Origin: Streptomyces sp. JB150
Lineage (GTDB): Bacteria > Actinomycetota > Actinomycetes > Streptomycetales > Streptomycetaceae
Direction: 5' to 3'
Assembly: GCF_011193355.1 (NCBI RefSeq)
Contig: NZ_CP049780.1
Location: 5,437,803-5,501,802 of the forward strand
DNA: 64,000 nucleotides
Positions 26,326 to 38,704 of this stretch are shown here, one piece after another. Under the pieces are notes generated by a model. It made no database searches. It saw only the letters and a program-made list of their open reading frames with translations, and was not told where the DNA came from. The translations under genes and the position numbers were made by a program. Within the stretch, counting starts at the first letter, position 1, and each line of letters starts with the position of its first letter.

Positions 26326-26403
26326 CGCACACCCGCGGGTCCGTGACCCGCGGCTCCGCGCGGCGCAAGGGGGCGCCGAGCCGGGCGGCCCGGGTCACCC
26401 GAT

Positions 26404-26447
26404 TGGATCTGCGACACTGGTAGGACCATGCCCAAGCCCGGAGAACT
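26404..26447 (+). repeat. attL: left copy of the integration repeat
   Basis: This copy matches 38661-38704 except at 26423-26424 (gg instead of cc). It includes the ATG and first codons of rlmN. At this end the start codon (26428) runs into element sequence and encodes only MPKPGELAVARQ before a TAA at 26464. A further 8-base match (ggtcaccc, 26393-26400 and 38650-38657) lies just outside at the same offset. Confidence 0.92.
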
Positions 26448-27278: not shown

Positions 27279-28517
27279 CTAACTATCGGGGCCGGCGCGT
27301 AGGGCGCTGTCGATGGCTTTTCGGGTCCGCTCCTGGCTCGATGGCATGAGGTGCGCGTACACCCGCAGCGTCAACCCAGGGTCGGAGTGCCCCAGGTACT
27401 CACTCACGGCCTTGATGCTTTCGCCGGCGTCCAGCAGCACCGAGGCGTAGAAGTGCCGCAGCGCGTGCATGCCGTGCTCCCGGGCGGACTGGTACTTGCC
27501 GTTCTCTCCGGCTTCCGTGATCAGACCGGCAGACGCGAGGGCGGGCTTCCACACCTGGATGTTGAAATTGCTGCGCCAGACGAGGCCGCTCGCGGTGTTC
27601 GTGAACAAGAGGCGGGCCGACACCTTCGGGCCGTCCGGCTTACGCCACGGCAAGGTGATCTCGACCGGTTTGAAGGCGTCCATGTGGGCCCGCAGGGCCT
27701 CAGCCACCGTGGGTGGCAACGGTACATCCCGCTCCTTGTTGCACTTCGGCGGGGCGAACACGGCTTTGCCCCGAATCAGCTTCACCTGCCGGACCACCCG
27801 AACGATGCCGCCGTCGAAGTCGAGCGCATCCTCAGCCAGTCCCACGATCTCGCCTTGACGGAGCCCGCACCCGGCGCCCACGTCCACCATGGGGCGGTAT
27901 CGCTGGGGGAGTGCTGCGCGAACCGCCTGAACCTGCGAGGGCAGCCACGGCACAACACGGCGCTGCTCGGCGGCTGGCGGACGGACAGACTTCGCGGCAC
28001 ATGGGTTGCGGGGCAACAGCCCGTCGTCGACCGCCGCACTCAGCACGGCCCGGACGTCGCCGTAGATGTTCCGCGCATAGCCACCGCTCACGGCCGGGTC
28101 GTTCTCCAGCGCGCTCACCAGGCCGCGGATGTGCTCGGGGCGGAAGGAGTCCAGTGGGCGAGAGCCGATCAGTCGGAAGGCGTGCAGACGCAACCGCTGC
28201 TCGACCACTACCTGACTGGCCGGGTCGATGTGGTGGGTCGCAAGCCACTTCTCGGCGTAGCTCTTGAAGGTGATTCGAGCTGCGCGCGGATCGATGTACT
28301 GACCGCGCGACATGTCCGAAGCGATGTCGGTGAGCCACTTCTCAGCGAGTCGCTTCTGTCGGTCCGGGAAGCTCTTGGACTTCTCGGTGCCGTCGGGGCC
28401 GACGTAGCGCGCCCGGTACCGCATGCCCGTGCCATATCGCTCAGTCTTGACCCTGACAGGCTTCCCGTCCGAGCCGGTCTCGGTCTTGTACCAGCGGTCT
28501 TGGATGTGGCCGGCCAT
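27279..28517 (-). CDS. int: AICE tyrosine recombinase (integrase)
   Basis: The 412-residue integrase catalyses integration and excision of the element. It has an AP2-like/N-terminal arm-binding region, a SAM-like core-binding domain (about residues 70-160) and the catalytic domain. Catalytic residues are visible: Arg in GLRQGEI, Lys in PPKCNKERDVPLP, HxxR in HALRHFYAS, His in LGHSD and Tyr in RVYAHLM. The ATG at 28517 shares one base with the xis stop (TGATG), so int is coupled to xis. Its frame is intact, suggesting the element can still integrate and excise. Confidence 0.94.
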   Translation of the reverse strand: MAGHIQDRWYKTETGSDGKPVRVKTERYGTGMRYRARYVGPDGTEKSKSFPDRQKRLAEKWLTDIASDMSRGQYIDPRAARITFKSYAEKWLATHHIDPASQVVVEQRLRLHAFRLIGSRPLDSFRPEHIRGLVSALENDPAVSGGYARNIYGDVRAVLSAAVDDGLLPRNPCAAKSVRPPAAEQRRVVPWLPSQVQAVRAALPQRYRPMVDVGAGCGLRQGEIVGLAEDALDFDGGIVRVVRQVKLIRGKAVFAPPKCNKERDVPLPPTVAEALRAHMDAFKPVEITLPWRKPDGPKVSARLLFTNTASGLVWRSNFNIQVWKPALASAGLITEAGENGKYQSAREHGMHALRHFYASVLLDAGESIKAVSEYLGHSDPGLTLRVYAHLMPSSQERTRKAIDSALRAGPDS

Positions 28518-28714
28518 CAGGCAGCTTCCCCCAGCTGGGAGTCCACCCAAGCCCGAACGTCGCGCGGGTCGAAACGCAAGTGCCGACCCACGCGGAAGCC
28601 GGGGGGACCGGTGCGCTTGCGGCGCCACTGGTAGACCGTCTCGACGCTGGGCAGCTCGAACATCTCGACCAGGTCCTCAGGCGTCAGGAAGCGGTTCGGC
28701 AGTTCTGAGGCCAT
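28517..28714 (-). CDS. xis: Excisionase (Xis), helix-turn-helix protein
   Basis: The 65-residue protein is a MerR-like/HTH_17 DNA-binding domain (FLTPEDLVEMFELPSVETVY, then GRHLRFDPRDVRAWV), typical of AICE Xis proteins that direct Int toward excision. The ATG at 28714 has GGGAGT upstream. It lies between rep (two bases apart) and int (one-base overlap), the same rep-xis-int order as in pSAM2. Confidence 0.9.
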   Translation of the reverse strand: MASELPNRFLTPEDLVEMFELPSVETVYQWRRKRTGPPGFRVGRHLRFDPRDVRAWVDSQLGEAA

Positions 28715-28716
28715 GG

Positions 28717-30105
28717 TCAGCGACTCCCTTCGTCGGCGAGCAGGGCCGGCAGTTCCTCGCGCGCGATCTCGCGGTTGAGTTCGATCTCGCGACGGATGTT
28801 GGCCGCGAGCCAGGACTCGCCGGGGGTGTGGCCGTGGCCGGCGTAGGTCCAGTGGGCGAGGGTCAGGGTGGTTGCGTCCTCGTCGCTGGGGTCGGGCAGG
28901 CCGAGAGCGGCGCGTTGCTGGGCGGCGCGGTAGTCGGCGCGGGTCTGACGGAGGGCGCCGAGGGTGGTGGAGTAGCGGCGGGACTTGGTGGAGAAGTGGC
29001 CGCGGAAGCCGAGCATGTGGGCCCAGTCGCGCAGCTTGCGGTCCGGGTACAGGGGGTGCATGTCGAGGCAGGCCTCGATGAGCCGCCGGGGGTGGTCGGG
29101 TACGCCGAGCAGGACCAGGGCTTCCTTGTTGCCGATGCGGCGGTCGACGGTGCCGGTGGTCTCGGCGGCCTTAGTGGCGTACTTGGCGACGTAGGAGGCG
29201 ACGGCCTGTTCGGTGATCTGTTCGCCGTCGCCGAAGGCGCGGATCGGGCGTACGTCGAGCTGGGTGCCCCACCGCAGGGTTCGGGCGGGTTGGTCACCGG
29301 TCGGGGGCACGTCGACGGCGACGCGGGCGGCGGCGGCGCGGATGGCGTCGGTGAGGAGGTCGAGGGTGGCCCAGGTGGGGGGTGGGGTGTCGGGTCCCTC
29401 GGGGCCGTCGAAGCGGATGACGGCGTGGAAGTGGACGGCACCCCGTTTCTGGTATTCGGCGACCTTGCCGAAGGAGACGCGGGACTGCTCGCGGGCGTCC
29501 TTCTGGGTGAGACCGGCCCGGCGGGCGATCTCCCGGCGTAGGTAGATCGTGAAGTAGCGCCACAGGTCGGAGGCGTGGTTGTTCCACAGCACGGCGCCTG
29601 CGTAGTCGTACGTGTCCGGGTCGAGCGGGGTGCCCAGTTCCGGCGCGTCTTCGGGGTGGTGGGTGCCGCAGGCGCAAGGCCGGTTTCCGGGGCGGTTGTG
29701 GACCGGGCCGAACGACGGCGCGGTGAGGGTCGCGAACACGCGTGGGTGGTCGCGGATGGTGTCGGGGGTGCCCTTGTCGGGGTCGCCGATGAGGCCGGCG
29801 CGGATGAGGTGGTAGGTGTCGCCGGCGTAGGTCCAGGCGCAGGCCGGGCAGCGGGAGGCGCGGCGGTTGCCGCAGGCGACACGCAGGACTCCGCCCGGTT
29901 CGGTGTCGGTGGAGTAGGAGTGCAGGACGTGCCCGGTGGCGCGGTCGCGGGTGACGGTCGAGCCTTGCAAGCGGATGGGGTCGGCGCAGCCGCCGGTGCG
30001 GCGGATCTGGTCCTGGATGCGGTCGAAGCCGGTGGACCCGGCCAGCCTCAGCACGTCGGCGAGGGTGGCCGGGTCCAGGCCCGCCATGGTGGCGGTGTCG
30101 GTCAA
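28717..30105 (-). CDS. RepSA-like rolling-circle replication initiator
   Basis: The 462-residue protein closely resembles RepSA of pSAM2 (MTDTATMAGLDPATL start, QIRRTGGCADPI, GNRRASRCPACAWTYAGDTYHL). The CPAC pair and a later CACGTHH motif suggest zinc binding. The HUH-type metal motif is visible as VHFHAVIRF (about residue 230) and a catalytic-tyrosine motif as VASYVAKYATKAAE (about 300). It would nick a double-strand origin after excision and start rolling-circle replication. The start is a TTG at 30105 with GGAGGTGA five bases upstream, and no better ATG fits the family N-terminus. Confidence 0.92.
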   Translation of the reverse strand: MTDTATMAGLDPATLADVLRLAGSTGFDRIQDQIRRTGGCADPIRLQGSTVTRDRATGHVLHSYSTDTEPGGVLRVACGNRRASRCPACAWTYAGDTYHLIRAGLIGDPDKGTPDTIRDHPRVFATLTAPSFGPVHNRPGNRPCACGTHHPEDAPELGTPLDPDTYDYAGAVLWNNHASDLWRYFTIYLRREIARRAGLTQKDAREQSRVSFGKVAEYQKRGAVHFHAVIRFDGPEGPDTPPPTWATLDLLTDAIRAAAARVAVDVPPTGDQPARTLRWGTQLDVRPIRAFGDGEQITEQAVASYVAKYATKAAETTGTVDRRIGNKEALVLLGVPDHPRRLIEACLDMHPLYPDRKLRDWAHMLGFRGHFSTKSRRYSTTLGALRQTRADYRAAQQRAALGLPDPSDEDATTLTLAHWTYAGHGHTPGESWLAANIRREIELNREIAREELPALLADEGSR

Positions 30106-32652: not shown

Positions 32653-33993
32653 TCAGTCGGTGACTGGGCGGGGCTTGACCAGCGACGGGTCGGGCGCCGG
32701 CGCCTCGGTGGGCACGAAGGGGCGGAAGGGCTCCAGGGCCGGGAAGTCCGGGACCAGGTGGGCGAACTCCCGGCAGACGGCAACCACGTCATCCCGTGTG
32801 GTGTGCGGGGTGCGGATCTTCGACCAGCCACCCGTGGAGTCCGCCGCAACGGCGGTGCCGGGGCGGTCCATCGGGATCAGGCTGGCGGCCGGGACCGCAT
32901 CCGGGGCGACGTCGGCGAGGCCCATCTCGGCGGTCTGCTTGTCGTTGACCCGGTGCACCACACGGCCGGTGAGCTGGGCGCGGAGCATGGTGGCGCCCTT
33001 GCCCAGTTCCGAACCGAAGCGCTGAGCGCAGATCTCCAGGTAGATGCCGACCGCGCGGGCCATCTGCGCCAGCCGGATCAACGCGGTCACGATCCGCTCC
33101 CGCCGTTCCTCGTCCTTGCGCGAGGAGATCAGGAACAGCTCCGCCACCTCGTCGACCAGGACCACGACGGGCACCGGCCGCGCCGACTCGGGCAGTTCCC
33201 AGATGTCGGAGGCACCGTGCAGGCTCAGCAGGTCGAAGCGGTCTTCCATCTCCGCCACCAGCACATCCAGCAGCGCAGCGGCGTCATCCGGGGTGGTGAC
33301 CAGGGCGGAGAGGCGGGGCGCGAAGGCGGACTGTTCCACCCCGCGCTTGCAGTCGATCCCCACCAGCGCGACCGGGAGCTGAGCGAGACCCTTGATCAGG
33401 TTGCGTTGGTACATCGACTTGCCGGAGTGGTTGGCGCCGAGAGTGAGCGCCATGGGTGCCTTGCGGTAGTCCCGCTCGAACGCGGTCCCGTCTTCCCGCA
33501 GCGCTACCGGCACCGCCATGTCGTGCGGCCGGGCCTTACGGGGCATCCTCACCCGGCGGAGCACGTCATAGCCGGTCATGCGCAGCTGGACGTATCCAGG
33601 CCGGGTCTCCACGACGGTCACCGAGTGCACGCCCCAGGCGTGACGCAGCCGCTCCGAGGAGGCCATCACGTCCGCCGGTTCCAGACCGGCAGGCAGCCGC
33701 AGCGTGACCCGCAGCCCCGTGGAGGTGGCACGGATGCGACGGATCTTCGGCGGGACCGGCTGCACCTCACGGCGGGCGACATTGCGGGTGACGAACGCCC
33801 GCAGGCCGGATGGCTGAACCGTCAGCCCGCACACGTCCATCGTCGAGCGGTACGAGAGAACGAACCGGCCCCAGGTGACCGGCGCCCCGACCAGCGACCA
33901 GTAGACGCGCGGGGCGCGGACCTTCGCGTAGCCGACACCACCGGCCCCGGCTAACGCGCCGGCGGTTTCCAACCACGTCGTCACGTCGGTCAT
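32653..33993 (-). CDS. FtsK/SpoIIIE-type DNA translocase (TraB-like)
   Basis: The 446-residue protein is the likely conjugative pump that moves double-stranded DNA between mycelia, the hallmark of Streptomyces transfer. It has an N-terminal hydrophobic region, Walker A GANHSGKSM (about residue 190) and Walker B VVVLVDEVAELFL (about 273). The sensor-like arginine region MARAVGIYLEICAQRFG follows. The ATG at 33993 lies one base from the stop of the upstream regulator gene, so the two are translated together. Confidence 0.9.
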   Translation of the reverse strand: MTDVTTWLETAGALAGAGGVGYAKVRAPRVYWSLVGAPVTWGRFVLSYRSTMDVCGLTVQPSGLRAFVTRNVARREVQPVPPKIRRIRATSTGLRVTLRLPAGLEPADVMASSERLRHAWGVHSVTVVETRPGYVQLRMTGYDVLRRVRMPRKARPHDMAVPVALREDGTAFERDYRKAPMALTLGANHSGKSMYQRNLIKGLAQLPVALVGIDCKRGVEQSAFAPRLSALVTTPDDAAALLDVLVAEMEDRFDLLSLHGASDIWELPESARPVPVVVLVDEVAELFLISSRKDEERRERIVTALIRLAQMARAVGIYLEICAQRFGSELGKGATMLRAQLTGRVVHRVNDKQTAEMGLADVAPDAVPAASLIPMDRPGTAVAADSTGGWSKIRTPHTTRDDVVAVCREFAHLVPDFPALEPFRPFVPTEAPAPDPSLVKPRPVTD

Positions 33994-36833: not shown

Positions 36834-37841
36834 TTACCGGCGACGGGCCTTCTTGGCCCCTGATCGTGCCTCTGAAATTTCGATGGACCTTTTGGTGAGG
36901 TAGCGCTGGAACTTGTCCTGCTCCAGAAGATCGGCGTACCTTGCGTCTGCTTGAAATTTGTAAGTGAGAAGCATGCGAATGTCAGTCGGGTCGCTGAGAT
37001 CTTTCCTCTGAGACAAGACGCCGCCGACTTTTGCCGTTATCGATTGTGCCGTAGATGGAATATCTGCCGCGTGCGGGTAGCTACTCAGTGCGGTGATTAG
37101 AATGTCGAAACTTCGACGCTCGTCCGTGATTGCAGAACTGGGTGCGCTGGTCTCGAAGAATTCGAACCACTCCACGTGCTGTTCCTGGTGTGTGACGGAC
37201 CCTGAGCGCGCGGAGTGCTCCAGTAGCGACTCTCGAAGGTCATGCAGAGATCCGTTCAGTGAAAATGGAACCTCAGTTCCTGGGCTTCTGATCATCCGGG
37301 TCATGCCGCGGACTAGGAACGCATAGCCGGCTGGCAGGTGGCTCGCGAGCGCCATCGCACCAGCAGCCGCTGAGACGTTGGCGCGCTCTAGCCTCTCCAG
37401 TGCGTCGGGCGACGAAACATATCCAGGAGCTATGGTCGACAGGAATGATCGTGGAACGAGGAGGTGGGAGGCGAACGTGTTAGCTTGGTGTTCTTGGCCA
37501 ACGCCGATTGCATTGGTCTTTTCTGGTATGTCTACGTCTGATTCGCCACTCTTCTGCGTGGTGTCACAGTGGATTGTCTCGACATGCCAGGGAAGCAAAA
37601 CGTGAGCGAGCTCATGAGCGAGCGTGAAGCGCATGCGACGCCGGTTTTGTATCTTCTTCAGGAAGATCTTAGGGCGATCGGAGTTCAAGTTAAGGGCAAC
37701 GCCGTCACAGCTGGAAGGCCAATCACACTCTTCGACAGATGCGTATAGTTCGGCGACGCTGAATATGTCGACTGGCGGACTCAGGTTAAGGCGATCGATG
37801 AGAGTAGCGGCTAGCCGCTTCTCGGGTGCGTCAGCTTTCAA
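36834..37841 (-). CDS. ImmA/IrrE-family (COG2856) metallopeptidase
   Basis: The 335-residue protein has the COG2856 zinc-peptidase core: MRFTLAHELAHVLLPWH with HELAH near residue 75, then EHQANTFASHLLVPR supplying the third ligand region. A C-terminal part of about 200 residues is unassigned. Family members cleave helix-turn-helix repressors (ImmA/ImmR of ICEBs1) or are parts of toxin-antitoxin modules. The start is a TTG at 37841, overlapping the previous gene by 11 bases. The GC content is well below the surroundings, indicating acquired cargo. It is the third gene of the toxin-like operon. Confidence 0.85.
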   Translation of the reverse strand: MKADAPEKRLAATLIDRLNLSPPVDIFSVAELYASVEECDWPSSCDGVALNLNSDRPKIFLKKIQNRRRMRFTLAHELAHVLLPWHVETIHCDTTQKSGESDVDIPEKTNAIGVGQEHQANTFASHLLVPRSFLSTIAPGYVSSPDALERLERANVSAAAGAMALASHLPAGYAFLVRGMTRMIRSPGTEVPFSLNGSLHDLRESLLEHSARSGSVTHQEQHVEWFEFFETSAPSSAITDERRSFDILITALSSYPHAADIPSTAQSITAKVGGVLSQRKDLSDPTDIRMLLTYKFQADARYADLLEQDKFQRYLTKRSIEISEARSGAKKARRR

Positions 37842-38160
37842 TTCGTCCGGTCTTAATCAGCCATTGCAGGACACTGGAGGCCTCTGCGTCATCCTTTGCT
37901 CTGGCCGCGAGGGCGACGGTCGATAGGTCGCCTGCCCTCTTCGGGGTGACTCCAGCGCGACGGCCGGCGAAGATGAAGCGCAGTGCGCTCGGCTGCTCCA
38001 CCCACAGCGAGTACTCTTCATCGGTCAGCCCCAGGTAGGCCGGGAGCGGTCCGAGGTCTTCGGTCGATTCATGCCAGGTTTGGACGTAATCGTCAATGTC
38101 GGACAGCAAGGCACTGCCGGACATCACCTGATCCGCATAGGTCGGCTGCCTGCTAGACAT
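37831..38160 (-). CDS. Small partner protein of the toxin-like operon (putative antitoxin)
   Basis: The 109-residue protein is acidic in its first half (SDIDDYVQTWHESTEDLG) and contains the pattern LGLTDEEYSLWVEQPSALRFI. I recall this pattern from small partner proteins beside toxin and ImmA/IrrE genes, but I cannot name a family. It has no obvious DNA-binding domain or membrane segment. The ATG at 38160 overlaps the toxin-like gene by 8 bases, and its stop overlaps the ImmA/IrrE start by 11, so the three genes are translationally coupled. By position it is the best antitoxin candidate; it does not resemble the colicin immunity protein Im3. Confidence 0.72.
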   Translation of the reverse strand: MSSRQPTYADQVMSGSALLSDIDDYVQTWHESTEDLGPLPAYLGLTDEEYSLWVEQPSALRFIFAGRRAGVTPKRAGDLSTVALAARAKDDAEASSVLQWLIKTGRIES

Positions 38161-38386
38161 CGATGCGCCTATCCTTCCTGGGATCTTTGATACGAACGCC
38201 GGACTGAGCATCTAGAGCGCCGAGATGGTATCCGCGGCTGTTGAAGACTTCGATCTCGCCATGCCGTCTGTCCCAAGTGTAGTAGCGCTGCTTGTCCTTG
38301 GACCGCCACCGCATCTCTCCGTTGAACGCGCCTAGGTACTCCTGATCGTCAAGGAAGCAAGGCTTTGGGCGCGGTATGTAGGACAA
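38153..38386 (-). CDS. Free-standing colicin E3-type ribonuclease domain (toxin candidate)
   Basis: The 77-residue product aligns along its length with the cytotoxic domain of colicin E3, which cuts 16S rRNA at the decoding site. The core YYTWDRRHGEIEVF matches YEWDSQHGELEGY of E3. The E3 catalytic residues D510, H513, E517 and R545 correspond here to D39, H42, E46 and R73, and YHLG...D and the I near the end also match. A TTG at 38386 has AGGAGG ten bases upstream and is preferred. The frame is open to another TTG at 38488 (111 residues), and that extension contains a TTA codon. No signal peptide or delivery domain is present, so it should act in the producing cell. Confidence 0.82.
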   Translation of the reverse strand: MSYIPRPKPCFLDDQEYLGAFNGEMRWRSKDKQRYYTWDRRHGEIEVFNSRGYHLGALDAQSGVRIKDPRKDRRIDV

Positions 38387-38567
38387 GCCCCGACCACCTC
38401 CTATGGCTCGTAGTAGCCGAGCTGATGTTAACGGTGATGGACCCTGGAGGGACAGGCTTTTGGCCAGCTGCACGTAGCCAACAGGCAACGCTCTGTTGAG
38501 GTGCGTCGCGGGTGTGAGCAGCTGAGGCGTGTCACGAGCGCGTGGACCGTGCGAGGGTGATCACCTT

Positions 38568-38585: not shown

Positions 38586-38660
38586 CCGAGGCCGCTCAAC
38601 GGCGCCCGCCGATAACCACTGCCGACAGTGGTGACGGACGACAGCCGCAGGTCACCCATG

Positions 38661-38704
38661 TGGATCTGCGACACTGGTACCACCATGCCCAAGCCCGGAG
38701 AACT
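38661..38704 (+). repeat. attR: right copy of the integration repeat
   Basis: This copy covers the region immediately upstream of rlmN, its ATG (38685) and its first seven codons. It differs from attL only at 38680-38681 (cc instead of gg). The change removes an AGGA sequence just before the start codon that is present in the attL copy. Confidence 0.92.

Follow-up and report, generated by a model that had tools for sequence, protein, structure and literature searches.

A recurrent cassette of an E3-type RNase gene, an acidic partner gene and a CapP-like peptidase gene on a Streptomyces integrative element

E3-type RNases are known as secreted weapons. They have been described as the toxin domains of bacteriocins and polymorphic toxins (PMC3482391). 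A 64,000-nucleotide stretch of the Streptomyces sp. JB150 genome (contig NZ_CP049780.1, positions 5,437,803 to 5,501,802; hereafter the window) encodes such an RNase in a small gene of its own, followed by genes for an acidic protein, predicted to be its antitoxin, and for a zinc peptidase. The cassette has the toxin domain PF09000 in common with colicin E3/Im3, but here the domain is a separate 77-residue gene product and a peptidase has been added. In further contrast to colicin E3, translocation and receptor domains are absent from the window toxin, and the partner, predicted to be helical, did not match a cloacin immunity family. With a probability of roughly 0.55, the cassette works inside the cell as a toxin–antitoxin module that has a protease of its own as trigger.

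RosmerTA (RmrT/RmrA), an anti-phage toxin–antitoxin system, is likewise a small toxin operon with an ImmA/M78 domain. In RosmerTA, however, the protease-domain protein, often with a helix-turn-helix (HTH) domain, is described as the antitoxin itself (PMC10440598), whereas the window encodes a separate antitoxin and protease and its toxin is an E3 RNase. The direct pairing of an ImmA-protease antitoxin with a toxin, by which RosmerTA is recognised, was not found, as the toxin and peptidase genes are separated by another small gene. CapP is described as cleaving the repressor CapH on single-stranded DNA. The likeness to CapH/CapP, and also to IrrE–DdrO and ImmA–ImmR, lies in the peptidase, for which capP is the best profile, and in the proposed cleavage in the C-terminal region of a neighbour. 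CapH/CapP controls cyclic-oligonucleotide-based anti-phage signalling systems (CBASS) and other immune operons, whereas the substrate proposed here is an antitoxin in which no DNA-binding domain was recognised and which is paired with an E3 RNase. CapK/CapS-like sensors, which drive a VapC toxin on DNA damage (EMBO J 2026, PMC13373217), offer another case of a DNA-damage sensor co-opted for the release of an RNase toxin, although the components there are a kinase/STAS sensor and a PIN nuclease rather than a protease and an E3 RNase. Makarova 2009 predicted three-component systems of COG2856 and Xre proteins with RelE or PIN toxins, and with them a COG2856 protease that cuts an antitoxin (PMC2701414). 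The antitoxin there is Xre and the toxin RelE or PIN, in contrast to the cassette, and the word ‘colicin’ has no occurrence in the main text of that paper. The component parts and the logic therefore have precedents; no description of the three-gene set was recognised in searches of the PMC open-licence literature, which takes in no preprints and few subscription journals.

The three cassette genes

The toxin, antitoxin and peptidase genes are all open and lie consecutively, without gaps, on the minus strand. The toxin gene (38153..38386, minus strand) encodes a protein of 77 residues from a TTG start. A sequence-only reading of the window had given this length while extending the cassette to 38488, a range that includes a longer open reading frame (38153-38488, 111 residues). 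The 111-residue start was dropped because the relatives, mostly of 75-79 residues, begin at a later start and align from the TTG at 38386. The product matches PF09000 with an E value of 4.3e-12 and 46.6 bits (cut-off 22), and colicin E3 (1e44_B) with an E value of 2.6e-7 by phmmer. Residues D39, H42, E46 and R73, encoded within 38168..38272 (minus strand), align with D510, H513, E517 and R545 of colicin E3 (numbered as chain number plus 455). These four catalytic positions are invariant across the 42 rows of alignment A3, which consists of the window and 41 of 45 toxin relatives (P0017, P0021, P0054 and P0057 were dropped) and is independent of the active-site pattern used for the genome scan described below. 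The predicted structure has the E3 fold, with 30-32% identity to colicin E3 in structural alignment. Both the retention of the four catalytic residues and the structural match to colicin E3, the first claimed and the second put forward as a check in the sequence-only reading, are thus borne out.

The toxin is free-standing in nearly all the relatives found. All but one of the 45 relatives (44/45) are 63-82 residues long, in a search that admitted only proteins of about 61-194 residues, and the open frame extends 26 codons or fewer upstream of the toxin match in 41 of 47 genome loci (up to 176 in the others). The window gene consists of the toxin domain only, with no translocation or receptor-binding domain in its 77 residues. 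The free-standing toxins have a conserved N-terminus of their own, with the consensus PxPKPCFLD in alignment A1 (from which 17 of the 45 relatives were dropped), and this conserved part lies outside the stretch that phmmer aligns with colicin E3.

The toxin stop and the antitoxin start overlap by 8 bases (ATGTCTAG; 38153..38160, minus strand). The same spacing, with varying letters, occurs in 35 of 45 junctions, those of the window and L002-L045, counted by a script that tried the 8-base start first and with L046-L050 left out. Because the antitoxin start overlaps the toxin gene, the two are probably translationally coupled. The predicted antitoxin (37831..38160, minus strand) is a 109-residue protein with an isoelectric point (pI) of 4.59, against 9.46 for the window toxin; the median pI is 9.44 for 53 toxins versus 4.60 for 46 partners, the highest of which reaches 11.5. 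The small basic toxin and the acidic partner form a conserved, overlapping two-gene operon, the arrangement by which type II toxin–antitoxin systems are recognised, and their charges would suit such a pair.

The predicted structure of the antitoxin divides into a helical N-terminal domain, residues 1-70, in blocks with a predicted local distance difference test score of 75-92, and a remainder that scores 51-62. This low-confidence C-terminal tail (residues 70-109; 37834..37953, minus strand) carries an AAR motif at residues 85-87 (37900..37908, minus strand); its counterpart is missing or altered in 15 of the 46 antitoxins, those classed as tail-less below. The motif is the putative recognition or cleavage site of the peptidase, as proposed from the association of tail and peptidase set out below. 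The window antitoxin matched no family in Pfam, NCBIfam or PADLOC; it does match four PHROGs families that have no known function (E from 7e-7 to 3e-5). With E values up to 0.1 allowed, the Pfam matches of the 46 partners included no cloacin immunity family. Similarly, no HTH family was matched by the window partner, and HTH_3 appeared only at E 0.043 in one of the 46 antitoxins. A search with the antitoxin alignment returned 187 proteins at E <= 0.001 among 979 candidates; the 120 matches listed of these 187 contain no Pfam domain, and their legible names are ‘hypothetical’ or ‘uncharacterized’ protein.

The peptidase gene (36834..37841, minus strand) overlaps the antitoxin gene by 11 bases (37831..37841, minus strand) and encodes a CapP/ImmA/IrrE-like zinc peptidase of 335 residues. 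Both the HExxH motif of M78 peptidases, here HELAH, and their distal glutamate, here E117, are present. PF06114 (Peptidase_M78) is the sole Pfam match (E 9.1e-10), the best PADLOC profile is capP (E 1.8e-23), and the PADLOC RmrA models also match (best E 1e-9). Residues H76, E77, H80, H86 and E117 occur in 35 of 35 aligned peptidases, which are those of the window, 27 genome loci, L062-L066, L096 and L098, with L068 left out. The coordinates confirm the layout first read from the letters, three genes overlapping by 8 and 11 bases that encode the toxin, an acidic 109-residue partner and a HELAH peptidase.

The antitoxin tail and the peptidase across relatives

A scan of species genomes with alignment A1 and one short pattern around the toxin active site gave 47 loci (L002-L048), and a scan of viral contigs gave two, which repeat L010 and L031. 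As a single active-site pattern was used, diverged or inactive toxins are missed and the conservation seen there is partly by construction. A partner homologue, identified by motif and alignment, immediately follows the toxin gene in 45 of the 47 genome loci; the remaining two, L047 and L048, are partial toxin matches without a partner, and in L046 the toxin frame is broken. The peptidase is third, in the same order, in 27 of the 45 (phmmer), its stop-to-stop frame starting between -100 and +10 of the antitoxin end. In the other 18 no peptidase frame is seen (a remnant persists in two), so a two-gene form exists. The near-constant unit is, on this comparison of sequences, toxin plus partner. 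Chance can be ruled out, since genomes distant from one another share this order of genes. Of the tripartite system that had been proposed from the window alone, the architecture and the free-standing toxin are therefore strongly supported by comparison, and the homologues do keep their partner genes; the peptidase is the part that does not hold throughout.

The presence of the peptidase follows an AAR motif in the C-terminal tail of the antitoxin. A tail was scored as AAR-type where [AV]AR occurs beyond residue 70 and no closer than 18 residues to the end. The comparison covered 46 antitoxins, from the window and the 45 loci (L047 and L048, without a partner, and the duplicates L049 and L050 were dropped, as they were from alignment A2). 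An AAR-type tail is present in 31 of the 46, and a peptidase in 28 of the 31 with the tail versus none of the 15 without it. The table is thus tail and peptidase 28, tail without peptidase 3, peptidase without tail 0 and neither 15 (Fisher p 1.6e-9, without regard to kinship). Among the three exceptions, L004 and L017 retain fragments of the peptidase gene (tblastn). In six of the tail-less antitoxins (L012, L021-L024 and L026) a C-terminal segment aligns by eye to the last helix, with no AAR there and no peptidase alongside, while in the remaining nine the tail is absent or, as in L016, lacks its last part. AAR and peptidase are both present in L030, a neighbour of L012 and L023 in the tree, on an unstarred branch.

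In loci retrieved after the rule had been set, a peptidase frame adjoins the antitoxin in all eight that have the tail (L062-L066, L068, L096 and L098); in L068 this frame is only 128 residues long. A toxin tree of 53 rows, from which L068 was left out as it has no toxin, shows 11 changes for the peptidase and 8 for the tail; on well-supported branches the peptidase follows the tail in 3.9 of four independent pairs on average, and never the opposite. An AAR-type tail was also found by script in 107 of the 120 listed proteins of the antitoxin family, and in addition in P0005, which is truncated at its start. These proteins come without genomic context and are therefore no test of the rule. The co-variation makes the regulatory protease of the sequence-only reading a more specific proposal, in which proteolysis is still a prediction.

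Carrier element, spread and viral relatives

The cassette is the last recognised cargo ahead of the right one of two 55-bp attachment repeats (left copy 26393..26447, right copy 38650..38704, both plus strand; 91% identical). The repeats bracket a tyrosine integrase (27279..28628, minus strand; PF00589 E 1.1e-14), a RepSA (pSAM2-type) replication initiator (28717..30105, minus strand; PF20199 E 1e-157) and an FtsK/SpoIIIE-type (TraB-like) transfer ATPase (32653..33993, minus strand; PF01580 E 3e-29), together with a DUF2637 protein, a GntR regulator, a DUF218 protein and a NUDIX protein. The cassette has a G+C content of 57.2%, against 67.7% for the element and 71.6% for the window. The earlier description of low-GC cargo at the right end of an integrative element is sharpened by these boundaries. 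The right repeat copy covers the start of rlmN (identified by PF04055 and PF21016), and the element thus appears to use the rlmN 5' end; no tRNA was found in the window by ARAGORN. The cassette stands at the end of a pSAM2-like element whose insertion lies in rlmN. In two other genomes of the genus (G400 and G398), further short copies of the repeat stretch lie about 4 and 13 kb away from rlmN. The sequences suggest that rlmN may be a recurrent insertion site.

The nearest named homologues belong to Streptomyces, probably the host genus on that evidence. By record title the hosts of the loci belong to about ten phyla, with a patchy spread, and several are metagenome bins. Prevalence is low. 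At least 10 of 394 genomes of the window's class were positive, the window's own included and five of them in frames of at least 814 residues. The phylum sample gave at least 5 of 396 genomes, three of them shared with the class sample, and the class of L014 at least 4 of 369, of which one is L014's own and two are in frames of 928 and 2,420 residues. All these counts are lower bounds, as first-look candidates were scored in part. Three loci of the window's class (L055, L056 and L058) have E3 domains at the C-terminal end of frames of about 2,100-2,300 residues and are likely polymorphic toxins. L017, the sole cyanobacterial bin, encodes a toxin closely similar to the one in L011, and misbinning is possible; its genome (G445), in which the peptidase gene is a remnant, is also the only one of the 40 cassette genomes examined in which PrfH, a factor linked to protection from E3-type damage, scores above the family cut-off.

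The antitoxin occurs in 19 viral loci, comprising six with an E3 toxin (including L069 and L070, which equal L010 and L031), L068, nine orphans and three that were not parsed. The nine orphans have no toxin or peptidase alongside and lack the AAR tail, although L076 and L077 have an AAR string in an unrelated C-terminus. Orphan antitoxin-like proteins are encoded by the viral contigs L067, L071, L072, L073, L079 and L081 and, beside an integrase, by a Pseudomonas phage (L083). They comprise about 65-90 residues from a likely inner start and end before the AAR tail; possibly they are phage-borne antitoxins. A shorter antitoxin match of 39-40 residues occurs in many mycobacteriophages. L068 (3315-4718) encodes an antitoxin with an AAR tail and the 128-residue peptidase frame, with no E3 gene, and the gene that overlaps it upstream matches CxxCxxCC marginally (23.2 bits versus 23). 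In Gordonia phage Phabuloso (L061, 2153-3506), an annotated HicA-like toxin has a C-terminal E3 domain (PF09000 E 4.8e-13) and overlaps by 8 bases an antitoxin of this family with about 200 extra residues, in a temperate phage immunity–integration region. The arrangement in L097 (3906-5247, genome G129) is similar.

A proposed mechanism and its alternatives

From these data we infer toxicity, rRNA cleavage, neutralisation, proteolysis, a trigger and a role in maintenance or defence, as follows. The 77-residue E3-type RNase would cut 16S rRNA at the decoding centre and so stop translation, while the acidic 109-residue protein would bind and neutralise it. The CapP/ImmA-like peptidase, once activated, would act on the antitoxin tail at or next to the AAR motif. 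The activating signal would most likely be single-stranded DNA, produced when a phage infects, when DNA is damaged or when the element itself replicates, and the antitoxin, weakened or removed, would release the RNase. Precedents by analogy are CapP–CapH, PprI/IrrE–DdrO and CapK/CapS–VapC. The cassette may stabilise its carrier and/or exclude competing phages or elements, a role suggested by its location on an integrative element and in predicted prophages.

Several observations weigh against this mechanism. The tail rule was first tested on the data that defined it, and its cut-off divides neighbouring cases: AAR lies 17 residues from the end in L016, without a peptidase, and 18 in L044, with one, so that a limit of 17 gives 28, 4, 0 and 14. 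L005 has an AAR tail and no trace of a peptidase in the available flank (tblastn), a VAR string stands at the extreme C-terminal end of L021 and L024, and the short peptidase frames of L019 (185 residues) and L042 (190 residues), scored as present, may be broken. As only four independent pairs fall on well-supported branches (median p 0.125; 8 pairs on all branches), the association is consistent but not significant after strict kinship correction. The viral orphans L076 and L077 have the AAR string in an unrelated C-terminus and no peptidase. Conversely, the HicA–E3 fusions L061 and L097 lack the AAR tail and have a small metalloprotease-like gene nearby, matched in L061 by PF06114 at 21.1 bits (cut-off 22) and in L097 by motif only. 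The antitoxin model gave no convincing match to known folds, a result that cannot exclude an Im3/cloacin type, and PrfH was above cut-off in one of 40 cassette genomes examined. Finally, antitoxins of 68-93 residues without the full tail apparently suffice in two-gene forms. Cutting the tail alone need not then free the toxin, and a second step must be assumed; alternatively, the tail would be needed for neutralisation in three-gene forms.

The strongest rival model follows RosmerTA logic, in which the peptidase would be part of the antitoxin, docking on the AAR tail and helping to hold the toxin inactive like RmrA, with proteolysis incidental or for turnover only. An ImmA-domain antitoxin has a precedent in RosmerTA (PMC10440598), co-occurrence of tail and peptidase would also be expected from docking alone, and tail-less antitoxins seem to work alone in two-gene forms. 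Mere docking, however, would not require the zinc-site residues, which are kept in every aligned peptidase, and in L004 and L017, with peptidase fragments only, the toxin and antitoxin frames are open, as though immunity did not depend on the peptidase. On balance the docking model is unlikely. Less likely still is an E3-fold RNase with another RNA target, such as tRNA, mRNA or phage RNA, in place of the 16S decoding centre. The low identity to colicin E3 and the conserved N-terminal part beyond the phmmer alignment would fit such a change of target, whereas the four catalytic positions and the predicted fold are all kept.

A smaller chance again is given to a plain two-gene pair in which the role of the peptidase would be confined to transcriptional regulation. 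On this CapH/ImmR logic the antitoxin would be an autorepressor that the peptidase cuts, and no toxin would be released directly. CapP-like and ImmA-like peptidases have been described as cutting HTH repressors, and the antitoxin domain is predicted to be helical; against this, no convincing HTH family was found, the HTH_3 match noted above being weak and confined to one antitoxin, and upstream a single inverted repeat was found (11 nt, 82%, 38625-38661) that overlaps the attachment repeat, about 240 bases from the toxin start. The weakest alternative, a stand-alone toxin and immunity reservoir for secreted polymorphic toxins with an ordinary immunity protein as partner, draws on the Tox-ColE3 domains of polymorphic toxins and the stand-alone toxin cassettes described (PMC3482391) and on the E3 domains that end frames of more than 2,000 residues in three other genomes of the window's class, yet is held less likely, indeed very improbable, as frames of at least 900 residues flank only 5 of 47 loci (none toxin-like by eye, with no domain search made), the gene overlap and frequent fixed third gene are a poor fit, and the free-standing toxin has its own conserved N-terminus.

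The module with a protease trigger could be taken further, as a tentative and rather doubtful extension. It would then represent an undescribed toxin–antitoxin–protease class, in which a two-part antitoxin has a cleavable AAR site and a CapP-like protease that senses single-stranded DNA frees an E3 RNase on infection or DNA damage. Phages would answer with orphan N-terminal domains of the antitoxin that lack the tail and hence could not be inactivated.

The interest of the cassette lies in an intracellular E3 RNase toxin, an antitoxin family without an assigned family and the link between AAR and peptidase. If true, the toxin–antitoxin repertoire would gain a cutter of the decoding centre, in the form of a free-standing intracellular E3 RNase that has an antitoxin family to itself, is thinly scattered across some ten phyla and also occurs in predicted viral contigs. 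The co-variation of AAR and peptidase turns the 2009 idea that COG2856 proteins cut antitoxins (PMC2701414) into a testable molecular claim with one motif, one protease and one toxin, and the proteins are small enough for tests in purified form. The recurrence of the genes in very different bacteria and in phages suggests that they may constitute an undescribed three-part self-poisoning switch.

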